Shown: positions 11,289 to 47,278 of the stretch, piece after piece
Layout: each line of letters starts with the position of its first letter
How positions within the stretch are numbered: position 1 is the stretch's first letter
From: Mangrovibacillus cuniculi
GTDB taxonomy: Bacteria; Bacillota; Bacilli; Bacillales; R1DC41
NCBI RefSeq assembly: GCF_015482585.1
Contig: NZ_CP049742.1
Span: 12,501 to 76,500, forward strand
Length of the DNA: 64,000 bases
Direction of reading: 5' to 3'
The notes under the pieces: model-generated
Seen by the model: only the letters and a program-made list of their open reading frames with translations
Told to the model about the DNA's origin: nothing
The model's database searches: none
Made by a program: the position numbers and the translations under genes

Positions 11289-12694
11289 AAGGTCTGAATG
11301 AAGAGTGCGGCGTATTCGGTGTTTGGGGGCATCCCCAGTCCGCGTCCATTACGTACTATGGACTTCATAGCTTACAACATCGTGGTCAAGAGGGAGCTGG
11401 TATCGTCACGACGGATGGCGATGTGCTTCGCGGATTAAAAGGCGAAGGACTAGTAACAGAGGTGTTTAAACAACACGATATGTCCGAACTAAAAGGCCAT
11501 GCTTCCATCGGTCACGTGCGATACGCAACAGCTGGAGGAGGCGGATATGAAAATGTCCAACCTCTTCTGTTTCACTCACAAACAGGTAGCTTAGCCATTG
11601 CACACAATGGAAATTTAGTAAATGCCAATGCCTTAAAGCATCAGCTAGAAGGACAAGGCAGTATCTTTCAGTCCACATCAGACACAGAGGTGGTCGCTCA
11701 CCTAATTAAGAGAAGTGGGTATTCTACTTTTTCAGACCGCGTAAAGAATGCCTTAACGATGTTAAAAGGAGCGTACGCACTTCTTTTATTAACGGAAACA
11801 GAGATGATGGTTGCACTAGATCCAAACGGATTGCGACCACTATCCCTTGGGACAATTGGAGATGCGTATGTTGTAACGTCTGAAACGTGCGCGTTTGATG
11901 TAGTCGGAGCGGAGTATCTACGCGACGTGCAACCTGGCGAACTCGTCATTATTAATGAAGAAGGCATTCGTTCGGAGCGCTTTTCCTACGGCGCAAAGCG
12001 AGCAATGTGCTCAATGGAATATATCTATTTCTCAAGACCAGATAGCGATATTCAAGGAGTCAATATCCATACAGCCCGCAAAAATTTAGGTAAGCAATTA
12101 GCGAGAGTAGTAGACATTGAAGCAGATGTGGTAACGGGGGTGCCAGACTCCAGTATATCTGCTGCAATTGGATTTGCAGAGGAAGCGGGTATTCCTTATG
12201 AGTTAGGGCTAATTAAAAATCGTTATGTTGGTAGAACGTTTATTCAACCTACGAAGTCTCTGCGTGAACAAGGGGTGAAAATGAAACTGTCTCCTGTTCG
12301 CGGTGTAGTAGAAGGGAAACGCGTCATCATGGTGGATGATTCCATCGTTCGTGGAACGACGAGTAAGCGGATTGTGACGATGTTAAAGGAAGCAGGAGCA
12401 ACGGAAGTACATGTGTGTATTAGTTCTCCGCCTATCAAAGACCCATGTTTTTACGGCATTGATACATCGACGCATGAAGAGTTAATTGCTTCTAAGCATT
12501 CTGTAGAAGAAATCCGCGAAATGATTGGAGCAGATTCTCTTACCTTTTTAAGCGTAGAAGATATGGTGACAGCAATTGGTAGAACAGATCAAGGAGAGCA
12601 CCGTGGACAATGTGTCGCTTGTTTCACTGGTCAATATCCTACAGAACTTTATCCAGATACGGTTTTACCGCACGAAAAAGAACTTACGAGATAG
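11273..12694 (+). CDS. purF: Amidophosphoribosyltransferase
   Basis: PurF is the first committed enzyme, forming phosphoribosylamine from PRPP and glutamine. It has 473 residues with an 11-residue propeptide whose removal would expose Cys12 (EECGVFG), the glutaminase nucleophile. The PRPP loop is [14 protein letters not shown]. Cys residues in MCSMEY, DPCFYG and GQCVACFTG match the [4Fe-4S] ligands of the Bacillus-type enzyme. The start 11273 is supported by GGAGAGGGG upstream and by propeptide length. Confidence 0.97.
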
Positions 12695-42862: not shown

Positions 42863-42919
42863 TTGACCATATAAAAAGCAATATGCTAAAATTCTCTATG
42901 AAAATGATAATTGTTATCA
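42863..42919 (+). promoter_or_regulatory. Promoter with Fur box for the acyl carrier/MBOAT operon
   Basis: TTGACC (42863-42868), 18 bp, then TGCTAAAAT (extended -10, 42884-42892). The sequence TGATAAT-T-GTTATCA (42905-42919) is a 7-1-7 inverted repeat that differs from the Bacillus Fur box at one position. It covers the expected start of transcription at about +6 to +20, a repressing position. Iron control of this operon is therefore likely but inferred. Confidence 0.75.
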
Positions 42920-43024
42920 ATCGATTATTGGGAATTGGTGGGGGCACAATTCACTCATCATTTTCTTTCGCTTATAGACTAGGGATAACTACACTAATGA
43001 ACATAAAGGGAAGGATGTAATGAA

Positions 43025-43273
43025 ATGAGAAACATAGACAAATATAAACATGCATTTATTACTGCACTCGATATAGAAGAAAGTGAAGTAAGAGAAGATC
43101 TAGCACTTGGCGATATTAGAGAATGGGACTCTATTGGACATATGGGACTTATTTCTGAGATGGAAGATGTGTTTGACGTTTCCATCGATGCGGAGTGGAT
43201 GACAGAATTTAACTCTTATAGTTCAGGGCTGGAATTATTGAAACGCTTAGGAGTGGACTTTATTAATGAATAG
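43025..43273 (+). CDS. Acyl carrier protein
   Basis: This 82-residue acidic protein has the phosphopantetheine site at Ser36 in EWDSIGHMGLI. It resembles the stand-alone carriers of DltC or alginate-type acylation loci rather than fatty-acid AcpP. It should carry an acyl or aminoacyl group loaded by the next gene's product. GGGAAGGATG precedes the start. It overlaps the adenylating enzyme gene by 8 nt. Confidence 0.85.
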   Translation: MRNIDKYKHAFITALDIEESEVREDLALGDIREWDSIGHMGLISEMEDVFDVSIDAEWMTEFNSYSSGLELLKRLGVDFINE

Positions 43274-44654
43274 TTTCCAAACACTAGATGATTTTGGGAA
43301 CAACACCGCTGTATATGCTGATCGAAATTACTCTTACTCTGAAATGCTAGAAATTGCTGATGATATAGGTAGTAATGTAGGTGGTAGAACGCTTGTTTTT
43401 TGCCTATGTTCCAACAATAAAGAATCTTTATTTGGCTACGTGGGCTTTATTAGAGGTGGTGTTGTGCCTGTTCTTCTTGACGCTTCTATTCAAATGGATC
43501 AGTTGAGAAGATTGATAGACCTATATAAGCCTACGTATATTTGGGCAAAAAGCAAAGATCAGTATTTAGTAAATACAATGGAAAGTTCATTTTCTTTTGG
43601 AGATTATACTTTGTTTAGGTCCCCGTCACCACATCAACATAATCTTCATGAAAGCCTAGCCTTACTTTTGACAACCTCTGGTAGTACAGGTAGTCCCAAA
43701 CTTGTTCGACTAAGCTATGAAAATATTTTTGAAAATGCTAAATCAATAGCAACGTACCTGGACATTACTGCAGAGGATAAACCTATCACCACATTACCGA
43801 TGAATTATTCCTATGGACTATCAATCATTAATAGTCATCTGATCTGTGGGGCGTCAATAATTGTTACGAATGCATCTGTTATTTCTAAAGAATTTTGGGA
43901 CTTATGTAGAGACCAAGAAGCAACAACTTTTGGCGGAGTTCCTTTCTTGTATGAGATGCTCGATAGACTTAAGTTCGAAAATTTTCAACTACCAAGTCTA
44001 AAGAAGCTAACGCAAGCAGGTGGAAAATTAAGTGATTCTCTTTCTACTAAATTTGCTAAAGTATGTAGGGAAAAAGGGATACAATTTTTCTCCATGTATG
44101 GTCAAACGGAAGCGACAGCGCGTATGGCCTATTTACCGTGCGAAAAAAACGTTGAGAAAGTTGGAAGTATTGGTATTGCTATTCCAGGTGGAGAGCTAAG
44201 TCTGCAAGATGAACATGGGAACGCTATTACAGAACCTAATAGTAGGGGTGAATTAATCTACAAAGGTGAAAATGTTTCTATGGGGTATGCAGAGTCGATA
44301 GATGATCTTTCAAACCCAGATGAAAACAGAGGTTTTTTACGTACAGGTGATATAGCTTATTTTGACGAAGATGGATACTTTTTTATATGTGGTCGGATAA
44401 AAAGAATGATTAAAAACTATGGGAACCGTATCAGTCTTGACGAAGTAGAAGGAATTTTATCTGAGTATGGTCATGAGTGTATTTGCGCTGGCACGGATGA
44501 CAAGTTGTATATTTACACGTTAAAAGATGATGATGTTCAGATTAAAAAAATAATGAAGGAAAAAGTAAACTTAAAGGGCATTACTATTATGAAAATCGAT
44601 GAGATCCCTCGTAATCAATATGGGAAAATTCTTTATGCAGAGTTACCAAAATAA
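43266..44654 (+). CDS. AMP-binding acyl/aminoacyl ligase (DltA-like)
   Basis: The 462-residue protein is an ANL-superfamily adenylating enzyme. Core motifs are present: TTSGSTGSPK (136-145), YGQTEAT (279-285), RTGD (359-362), GRIKRMIKNYG (376-386) and the catalytic Lys454 in NQYGKI. It should activate a carboxylic or amino acid and load it on the carrier protein encoded upstream. The substrate cannot be read from the sequence; the short N-terminal domain suggests a small acid. It is not DltA itself. Confidence 0.85.
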   Translation: MNSFQTLDDFGNNTAVYADRNYSYSEMLEIADDIGSNVGGRTLVFCLCSNNKESLFGYVGFIRGGVVPVLLDASIQMDQLRRLIDLYKPTYIWAKSKDQYLVNTMESSFSFGDYTLFRSPSPHQHNLHESLALLLTTSGSTGSPKLVRLSYENIFENAKSIATYLDITAEDKPITTLPMNYSYGLSIINSHLICGASIIVTNASVISKEFWDLCRDQEATTFGGVPFLYEMLDRLKFENFQLPSLKKLTQAGGKLSDSLSTKFAKVCREKGIQFFSMYGQTEATARMAYLPCEKNVEKVGSIGIAIPGGELSLQDEHGNAITEPNSRGELIYKGENVSMGYAESIDDLSNPDENRGFLRTGDIAYFDEDGYFFICGRIKRMIKNYGNRISLDEVEGILSEYGHECICAGTDDKLYIYTLKDDDVQIKKIMKEKVNLKGITIMKIDEIPRNQYGKILYAELPK

Positions 44655-44832
44655 TCATTAAAAACCGTACTAAGTAAATATGTACTACGGACAAACCTAA
44701 CTAGTTCATAATAAAACGGTGGGTACTACCTACATTTAAAAATGTTAAGCCACAGTGGTGTATGGTATAGGAGTTCTACATTATTTGTCAACATATTGCG
44801 GAGTTTTAAGTTTACTTTTATCAGGTGGTTAT

Positions 44833-46284
44833 ATGAGTTTCATATCTATTGAGTTTCTGTTATTTTTCACAATAATTGTATGTATTTATTATTTAATTCC
44901 TCATCAATTTAGATGGATTCTCTTATTAGTAGCAAGTTATGTATTTTACGGAATGATCAATGTTCAATTTTTACCGTTACTCATTTTAAGTACAGTGTGT
45001 ACTTATTTTTTTGGAATAGTAATTGAGAAGCAGGAGACGAAAAAACAAAAAAAACACGTTATGCTTTTGGGCATTTCTATTCTACTATTCTTTCTCGGTT
45101 GGTTTAAATATTTTAATTTCGTAAATGAATCTCTTCGAGCGGTTGCAGAATATTTTAATTGGAATTATTCCATACCATACCAAGAAATACTATTACCAAT
45201 AGCAATTTCTTTTTATACTTTTCAAGCAGTAAGTTACCTTGTAGATGTTTCTAAGGGGAAGCAAAAGGCTGAAAGACATTATGGCTATTTCTCCATTTAT
45301 TTTGCATTCTTTCCACAATTGGTTGCTGGACCAATAGAACGCGCGAAGAAGTTACTTCCACAATTGAGAGCGGAACAAAGTTTAGAGTATGAAAATATAA
45401 GTTATGGGATGAAACGTATTGCATGGGGGTTCTTTAAGAAAACACTGATTGCAGATCGACTAGCACCTATTGTATCTAGTGTATTCGATAGTCCTAATCC
45501 GACTGGTTCCGAGGTTGTGGTAGGTACTATATTATTCTCCATACAACTGTATGCTGACTTTTCAGCGCTTAGTGATATCGCAATCGGTTGTGCTAGAATA
45601 CTAGGAATAAAATTATCGGAAAACTTTAAGCAACCGCACTTTGCCGTATCCATTTCGGATTTCTGGAATAGATGGCATATAACGCTCTCTACATGGCTAA
45701 GAGACTATATCTTCTTCCCACTTTGTAAGGGCAAGAAGAAAAGAAGTGACATTTATGTAGCAATTATCATCACTTTTCTAGTAAGTGGTGTTTGGCACGG
45801 TGCTGCTTGGACTTTTGTTTTATGGGGTCTTATTCACGGCATCTATAGAGTATTTGGGGATTATACAAAACATTATCGAGAAAAAGTGGTTTCATTCACT
45901 CGTTTGGATAGAAGTCCGACGCTACACAGATGGATGAAGATTTCCATCACTTTCTTCCTAATATGCTTTGCAAGAGTTTTCTTCCGATCGGATTCCGTCT
46001 CACAAGCTTTTGAAAATGCGCAATTATTCTTATCTATCAGTTCATGGAGCCCAGTTGGAATCTTCAAGGCATTGGAATTATTTACGTTACTAGATTTTGT
46101 CGTTTTTAGTTTCTTCTTTATTATTTTACAGCTGTTTCAATATATCGAAAGAAAAAAAGTTTCCACATGGAAATTGCTATCCCAGCGTTCCCTTATTACT
46201 AGATATGCGTTTTATATTTTTATTATCCTATCAGTACTTGTATTTGGTGTTTCTGGTGATGGGTTTGTTTATGGAAGGTTTTAA
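44833..46284 (+). CDS. MBOAT-family O-acyltransferase (DltB/AlgI/PatA-like)
   Basis: The 483-residue membrane protein has about 10-12 hydrophobic segments. The MBOAT features are present: FFPQLVAGPIERAKKLLPQ, DFWNRWHITLSTWLRDY and the catalytic His in VSGVWHGAAWTFVLWG. It should move an acyl group from the carrier to an extracytoplasmic acceptor. ATG 44833 matches the family N-terminus, with AGGTGG upstream; an in-frame GTG at 44755 lacks a ribosome-binding site. The 178-nt gap before it contains no gene resembling dltX. Confidence 0.88.
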   Translation: MSFISIEFLLFFTIIVCIYYLIPHQFRWILLLVASYVFYGMINVQFLPLLILSTVCTYFFGIVIEKQETKKQKKHVMLLGISILLFFLGWFKYFNFVNESLRAVAEYFNWNYSIPYQEILLPIAISFYTFQAVSYLVDVSKGKQKAERHYGYFSIYFAFFPQLVAGPIERAKKLLPQLRAEQSLEYENISYGMKRIAWGFFKKTLIADRLAPIVSSVFDSPNPTGSEVVVGTILFSIQLYADFSALSDIAIGCARILGIKLSENFKQPHFAVSISDFWNRWHITLSTWLRDYIFFPLCKGKKKRSDIYVAIIITFLVSGVWHGAAWTFVLWGLIHGIYRVFGDYTKHYREKVVSFTRLDRSPTLHRWMKISITFFLICFARVFFRSDSVSQAFENAQLFLSISSWSPVGIFKALELFTLLDFVVFSFFFIILQLFQYIERKKVSTWKLLSQRSLITRYAFYIFIILSVLVFGVSGDGFVYGRF

Positions 46285-46372
46285 TAAAGGTGCAATCAGG
46301 TTTATCTAACACAGATGAACAGTGATGTTTTGTCATTTAAGTAAAAGAAACACAGTATGGAAAGGATCTACT

Positions 46373-47278
46373 ATGAAACGTTTATTCATGAAGGTAACAA
46401 TGATTGTTACTGGCGTTTTGTTACTATTCATCCCAGTAAATAACTTTGTAAAGAATTCTTATGATTACAACATAAGTCATGAAATACAAGGTTTTAAAAA
46501 GAACCCAATTTCCATTGATATCGTTAATTTGGGTGCATCTCATTCTATGTACGGTTATTATTTTAAACCGACTGGGTTGGCCCATTTAGATTTAGCGCTT
46601 CCTGGTCAGACATTTGAATACGATTTAAAGCTGATAAAGGAGTATGGAAAATATCTTAAACCAAATGGAATAGTGCTTATTTCTATTTCCCAAATTTCTT
46701 TCGTCGATTCTGAGGTCGACAGTATCGGTAAGTATTACAGAATATTAGATCGTAATGATATTGACCCTTTTCACTTAGTGGATTATTACAGTTATATGTA
46801 CGTACCTGGAACAAACAGTGGGATCTTTACTTCAGCGCTCTCACGTAAATGGAAAACATTTAAATGGAATGCTCATCAAACATGGGCGAACAACGGTAAA
46901 AACTATTCGAAAAGAAAGTTTGAGATGGTACAAGAACAATACCGACAAGCTTCTGAAACTAATAACATAAAACAAAGTGTAGAGAAGTTAGTAGATATCG
47001 TTGAATATTGTAAAGACAAAGGGTATCAGGTAGTTTTAACGATGGAGCCTGTGCATCAGTCTTATCAAGAGTATTTTAATGAGGAAGTCATGGATCAACT
47101 AGTCTTTCAGTACTTAAAACCTCATGAACTGGATGTCCCGTTTTTAAATTATATGAGGGATGAGAGATTTTCCACTAACAAAAATTATTATCTGGACCCG
47201 GACCATTTGAATAGTGATGGAAGAAAGAAGTTATCTTGGATAGTGTATAAAGACCTCAAGGATTTGGGTTATTTATAA
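46373..47278 (+). CDS. SGNH-like / DltD-like accessory acyltransferase protein
   Basis: The 301-residue protein has one N-terminal membrane anchor (about residues 5-25) and an extracytoplasmic domain with NLGASHSMYGY (nucleophile block, Ser) and DPDHLNSDGRKK (Asp/His block), the pattern of SGNH-type partners of MBOAT enzymes such as AlgJ, PatB and DltD. It should finish acyl transfer outside the cell. AAAGGATC precedes ATG 46373. It is the last gene of the operon; no strong terminator follows. Confidence 0.75.
   Translation: MKRLFMKVTMIVTGVLLLFIPVNNFVKNSYDYNISHEIQGFKKNPISIDIVNLGASHSMYGYYFKPTGLAHLDLALPGQTFEYDLKLIKEYGKYLKPNGIVLISISQISFVDSEVDSIGKYYRILDRNDIDPFHLVDYYSYMYVPGTNSGIFTSALSRKWKTFKWNAHQTWANNGKNYSKRKFEMVQEQYRQASETNNIKQSVEKLVDIVEYCKDKGYQVVLTMEPVHQSYQEYFNEEVMDQLVFQYLKPHELDVPFLNYMRDERFSTNKNYYLDPDHLNSDGRKKLSWIVYKDLKDLGYL

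Follow-up and report, generated by a model that had tools for sequence, protein, structure and literature searches.

The window analyzed here is a stretch of 64,000 nucleotides from Mangrovibacillus cuniculi (assembly GCF_015482585.1, contig NZ_CP049742.1), and the coordinates in Table 1 are positions in this window. Between positions 43025 and 47278, it encodes a carrier protein, an adenylate-forming ligase, an MBOAT acyltransferase, and a membrane-anchored SGNH protein, all preceded by a promoter and a Fur box. The ligase gene overlaps the carrier gene by 8 nt, and the genes neighboring this operon encode a 23S rRNA methyltransferase and a YetF-like protein. These are the four genes described in an earlier note on this DNA, and the three residues or motifs that it singled out (Ser36 of the carrier, Lys454 of the ligase, and WHGAAW of the MBOAT protein) are all invariant.

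Table 1. Coordinates of the operon genes and of the elements in front of them
Feature	Position	Strand	Remarks
Sigma-A-like promoter	42863-42892	+	-35 TTGACC (42863-42868), -10 TAAAAT (42887-42892), 18-bp spacer; read from the sequence
Fur box	42905-42919	+	TGATAATTGTTATCA; 13/14 to TGATAATnATTATCA
Acyl carrier protein	43025-43273	+	Phosphopantetheine Ser36; motif WDS, invariant Ser
Adenylate-forming acid-carrier ligase	43266-44654	+	Lys454; Ser182 and Arg286 at predicted pocket positions
MBOAT acyltransferase, PatA/AlgI type	44833-46284	+	C-terminal acyl-shuttle hexapeptide FVYGRF
Membrane-anchored SGNH acyltransferase (predicted)	46373-47278	+	TM helix 2-27; Ser56 in GASHS, His278 in DPDHLN

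Fur box and distribution of the operon

The match of the Fur box amounts to 14 of 15 bases, as the earlier note had it, when the free base is counted (only 14 positions are scored), and a motif scan of the whole window revealed no second Fur site of such quality. The box lies just downstream of the sigma-A-like promoter, so that it overlies the first transcribed bases, some 105 bp ahead of the first ATG; the same arrangement, with the -35/-10 pair immediately 5' of the box, is found again in many relatives. All 42 copies of the operon carry a Fur box with at least 11/14 matches in the 400 bp that precede the carrier gene, the promoter feature expected of a Fur regulon, and matches of at least 12/14 occur in 40 of these copies versus 13 of 1,621 control windows from the same loci. 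The conservation of this predicted regulatory site is not due to chance. In the genome of M. cuniculi itself, the same motif is located upstream of the FutABC importer, an NIS siderophore operon, and siderophore-type transporter genes, and thus appears, as far as sequence tells, to be a working Fur motif in this organism. Fur-box iron loci of this genome are adjoined by long reading frames composed of short repeats (LSRHAGEERKATKG and LSPSLLLPHGDLTT; L147, 1-753, and L146, 326-1144), which resemble repeat arrays more than genes.

A genome scan, which the earlier note had proposed as a check on gene order, identified all four genes, in unchanged order, at 40 other genome loci (51 to 83% identity), nearly all in named Bacillales genera (Sutcliffiella, Bacillus, Neobacillus, Fictibacillus, Lysinibacillus, Solibacillus, Metabacillus, Planococcus, Exiguobacterium, and others), and one further copy on a Metabacillus plasmid. 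Every copy includes a dedicated carrier and ligase. More distant MBOAT relatives (identity of 47% or less) have no neighboring ligase of the operon type. The genes flanking the operon vary between genera, and the ligase occurs in only 15 of 348 sampled genomes of the class, which indicates a patchy distribution. The earlier note had suggested transfer on the basis of AT-richness. The operon is indeed slightly AT-rich (35.0% GC versus 38.6% in the flanking 16 kb), but operon GC content follows that of the host (34 to 51% across loci) and is therefore a weak argument; horizontal transfer is better supported by the patchy distribution and the plasmid copy. One locus, from Planococcus sp. CP5-4_YE (L013, 8556-8660), has a second MBOAT-like fragment of 35 amino acids after the MBOAT gene, probably a partial duplication.

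Acid activation and acyl transfer compared with known systems

The carrier Ser36, which lies within the WDS motif, is invariant in 42/42 copies, and the ligase, with its invariant Lys454, matches the Pfam AMP-binding family (E value of 1.4e-42). Its score against the DltA model TIGR01734 (92 bits) is far below the cutoff of 560 bits for D-alanine ligases of the DltA type. A phylogeny against DltA, likewise proposed in the earlier note, separated the ligase family from DltA and from NRPS domains with a support of 100/100, and Ser182 is aligned with an Asp residue of DltA and NRPS domains. In those proteins, the Asp binds the amino group of the amino acid substrate, and its replacement by Ser would make D-alanine an unlikely substrate. 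Aryl acids (2,3-dihydroxybenzoate [DHB] or salicylate) were also considered and rejected as substrates: the sequence matches in the PDB are diffuse ANL enzymes, among which salicylate ligases rank low, and the operon contains no DHB genes. An AF2 model of the ligase was poor (mean pLDDT of 66) and was left unused, and the putative pocket residues (Ser182, Tyr183, Ser186, Met277, and Arg286) were taken from the alignment only.

Of these residues, Arg286 is shared by all 29 displayed members of the wider family, whereas DltA and NRPS domains have no Arg at the aligned position, which we take to be NRPS code position 331. An Arg in the pocket suggests a second anionic group on the acid. A stand-alone ligase that loads an organic acid onto a small acyl carrier protein is also known from cispentacin biosynthesis, in which AmcH charges the carrier AmcB with 2-oxoglutarate and accepts neither malate nor citrate (PMC10698177). 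However, AmcH/AmcB feeds a polyketide-type synthase rather than a membrane acyl transfer, and the operon ligase matches the NCBIfam model of AmcH, which is not its best match, far below the cutoff. Other relatives of the ligase are encoded in glycan loci, together with SDR and LuxE/LuxC-like genes, a combination that would suit the reduction of a small acid. Such a reduction has been proposed for tetronate in Vibrio cholerae. The tetronate role of the V. cholerae wbeK-O locus, whose WbeL protein has 471 amino acids, is confirmed (PMC3441752). From one pocket Arg and these distant relatives, our leading guess, held with low confidence, is that the acid may be a small dicarboxylic or hydroxy-dicarboxylic acid. 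In other Bacillales, related ligases with ACP, SDR, and LuxE/LuxC-like genes (L099, 5116-9876; L100, 5462-10592; L101, 6377-11042) are located inside flagellar-glycan loci of the pseudaminic-acid type and may belong to an uncharacterized sugar-acyl pathway.

The third protein matches Pfam MBOAT (2.6e-26), and its WHGAAW motif (residues 321 to 326) is invariant in 42/42 copies. It scored 164.5 bits against the DltB model TIGR04091 (cutoff of 375 bits) and is thus not of the DltB type; its scores were about 320 to 380 bits with PatA/AlgI-type relatives versus 114 to 124 bits with two MBOAT proteins encoded beside DltA. In all 42 copies, the C terminus ends in F[VI]YG[GR]F. Of 43 other MBOAT proteins compared, 41 have an end resembling the FxYFxF motif usual in PatA/AlgI/WssI-type proteins, and two encoded beside DltA lack such an end. 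The operon protein therefore combines the catalytic His with the C-terminal Tyr hexapeptide of MBOAT-SGNH systems, except that G replaces the second aromatic residue. No open reading frame for a separate DltX microprotein was found in the operon among frames of at least 70 amino acids, the lower limit of the list used. Its absence, already remarked in the earlier note, is explained by the fusion of the shuttle motif to the MBOAT C terminus.

The product of the fourth gene has no Pfam match. Its AF2 model (pLDDT of 86) resembles SGNH hydrolases and O-acyltransferases, including PatB and OatA (Z scores of 11 to 13.7), with DltD also among the Foldseek matches, and Ser56 and His278 are invariant. 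We thus confirm the anchored SGNH-like protein of the earlier note as to its presence, its N-terminal transmembrane helix, and its predicted fold, which would supply the adjacent extracytoplasmic partner of an MBOAT-SGNH pair; its start, however, is more likely the ATG at 46373 than the GTG at 46322 given in that note, because the former has a ribosome-binding site and agrees with the relatives.

The notion of a dlt-like system, put forward in the same note, therefore holds for the logic of acid activation and export acylation, and such a chain under Fur control is supported at the level of sequence. It does not hold for the system itself. The operon differs from canonical Dlt (DltXABCD) in a ligase outside the DltA clade that is without the amino-binding Asp, in an MBOAT protein nearer to the PatA/AlgI type that bears the shuttle motif for which Dlt uses DltX, and in gene order, Fur control, and linkage to ferric transporters. 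The C-terminal Tyr hexapeptide and the separate SGNH protein are shared with PatA/PatB and other MBOAT-SGNH pairs (AlgI and WssI types). The operon encodes a dedicated ligase and carrier; the described pairs of the PatA/PatB type use an acyl-coenzyme A donor without a carrier, and among the MBOAT-SGNH pathways described so far, only Dlt has a carrier (PMC12148441, 2025). The only other MBOAT protein of M. cuniculi is of the PatA type (ending in FLYFNF; L092, 5535-8081; contig C1, approximately 2268534-2271080); it is encoded with an SGNH-like neighbor near wall proteins resembling copper amine oxidase N domains and probably serves the acetylation of a secondary cell-wall polysaccharide.

Linkage to ferric-iron importers

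Genes for a ferric ABC transporter (SBP, permease, and ATPase) adjoin the operon in 5 of the 41 other copies, upstream in L014 and L040 (where the set is cut by the locus end) and downstream in L017, L031, and L083. The SBP of L083 matches solved iron-binding proteins of the FutA/IdiA type (E value of 1e-110). Across the order, 30/30 operon carriers have a FutA ortholog, versus 16/58 non-carriers (Fisher test, 3e-12, phylogeny ignored); in M. cuniculi, the FutABC genes are located about 2.8 Mb from the operon. SBPs of the FutA/SfuA/FbpA type bind the bare ferric ion rather than ferric siderophores. Because both gene neighborhood and co-occurrence tie the operon to ferric-iron ABC importers, its link to iron is strong, and iron is probably its purpose as well as its trigger.

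A counterpart occurs on plasmids of Rhodococcus and Mycolicibacterium, in which a single fused protein comprises a ligase (about 40% identity), a carrier domain, and an AT3 membrane acyltransferase, without an adjacent SGNH gene. The AT3 domain (PF01757) was detected in three of four proteins tested (3e-8, 3e-7, and 5e-5), only one of which was above the Pfam cutoff. The fusion gene is directly beside an SBP-permease-ATPase operon in 8/8 loci; the one SBP tested matches SfuA, YfuA, HitA, and FbpA (E values down to 1e-134), a subfamily different from FutA. An IdeR/DtxR-like box with at least 13/19 matches is located no more than 70 bp from the first gene in all eight loci, versus 7 of 329 control windows. 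Rhodococcus loci have a second IdeR-like box (13 to 14 of 19) some 80 bp upstream of the SBP gene (L085, around position 11468; L090, L154, L155, and L157).

In the ligase tree, the Bacillales proteins and the actinobacterial proteins fall into two distinct clades, and ligases from capsule and flagellar-glycan loci branch off between the two (support of 97/94 for the grouping of actinobacterial, flagellar-glycan, and Deinococcus ligases). The simplest reading of this topology is that one ligase class was recruited twice into putative ferric-iron systems, with different acyltransferases; a single ancestral link to iron followed by loss may also account for it. The ligase is the part common to both versions, which points to the acid itself as the iron-relevant part. 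FutABC/FbpABC/SfuABC importers are thus a repeated gene partner of acylation genes and share their iron regulation, and to our knowledge no acylation system belongs to the described transporters of these types.

Proposed role in iron acquisition

We consider it probable (approximately 0.6) that this Fur-repressed operon acylates a component on the outer face of the membrane in iron starvation and thereby contributes to the acquisition of ferric iron by FutABC-type importers. Iron starvation would lift the Fur repression of the four genes. The ligase would then adenylate a small acid and load it onto the Ser36 phosphopantetheine of the carrier, from which the MBOAT protein would transfer the acyl group through the membrane to the Tyr residue in the hexapeptide at its own C terminus. 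The anchored SGNH protein would accept the group on Ser56 and pass it to a surface acceptor (a wall polymer, glycan, or lipid), and a free carboxylate of the resulting ester may hold Fe3+ near the substrate-binding lipoprotein. This order of transfer steps is modeled on Dlt and PatAB biochemistry; we infer the role in iron uptake and, most tentatively, the identity of the acid. A broader proposal, which we regard as possible but would not favor over its negation, is that the acylated envelope component may be a fixed surface iron ligand, with a carboxylate acid, that hands Fe3+ to a siderophore-independent FutA/SfuA importer, and that such ligands may have arisen at least twice, with unrelated acyltransferases (MBOAT-SGNH in Bacillales and AT3 in Actinobacteria) and different regulators (Fur and IdeR).

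The ester could instead tune charge, as D-alanylation does, by making the wall polymers of iron-starved cells less negative and thereby freeing Fe3+ for FutABC or guarding against cationic stress. The chemical logic is that of dlt, M. cuniculi has no dlt of its own (no DltA match at an E value of 1e-60), and canonical dlt transcripts increase in low iron in Clostridioides difficile (PMC6311696). This last response means that Fur regulation alone is no proof of a role in uptake, and the transporter linkage is the stronger argument; its direct recurrence, which extends to actinobacteria and there involves an unrelated acyltransferase, together with a ligase that is not DltA and is without the amino-binding Asp, makes charge tuning unlikely in our judgment. 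We give similarly little credence to the idea of a small-molecule or lipid product, such as a cell-associated or secreted siderophore-like chelator, that is finished outside the membrane. The linkage to iron transporters would fit such a product, as would the actinobacterial AT3 version without an adjacent SGNH gene, but the SBPs concerned take up the ferric ion itself, the operon has no siderophore scaffold gene, and the MBOAT-SGNH pairs characterized to date act on polymers (PMC12148441). NIS synthesis was also rejected as a partner, since the operon includes no NIS gene (IucA/IucC-type synthetase) and such genes are neither enriched nor clearly depleted in its carriers (9/30 versus 24/58 non-carriers). 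Least credible is an ordinary glycan decoration for which Fur is merely an environmental cue and the FutABC association a matter of chance or habitat: ligase relatives do occur in capsule and flagellar-glycan loci and the direct linkage is confined to 5/41 copies, but FutA co-occurrence and the Fur box are without exception and the actinobacterial linkage, under IdeR-like boxes, is separate.

Returning to iron acquisition as the preferred role, a search of freely accessible journal papers yielded nothing on the four-gene operon, and it is a credible claim that the operon belongs to a hitherto undescribed route of ferric-iron acquisition. It is poorly understood by what means Gram-positive cells that have no matching siderophore maintain a supply of Fe3+ at the cell surface. 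A Fur-controlled acylation that recurs with FutA/FbpA-type importers would provide a testable answer, namely, a covalently displayed iron ligand. The predicted MBOAT-SGNH machine pairs the carrier-fed donor known from Dlt with the fused shuttle motif known from PatA, a combination absent from the 2025 account of the family (PMC12148441). Loci annotated only as "AMP-binding protein / MBOAT / hypothetical protein" or as "AMP-binding protein / iron ABC transporter" may accordingly be flagged as likely iron genes.
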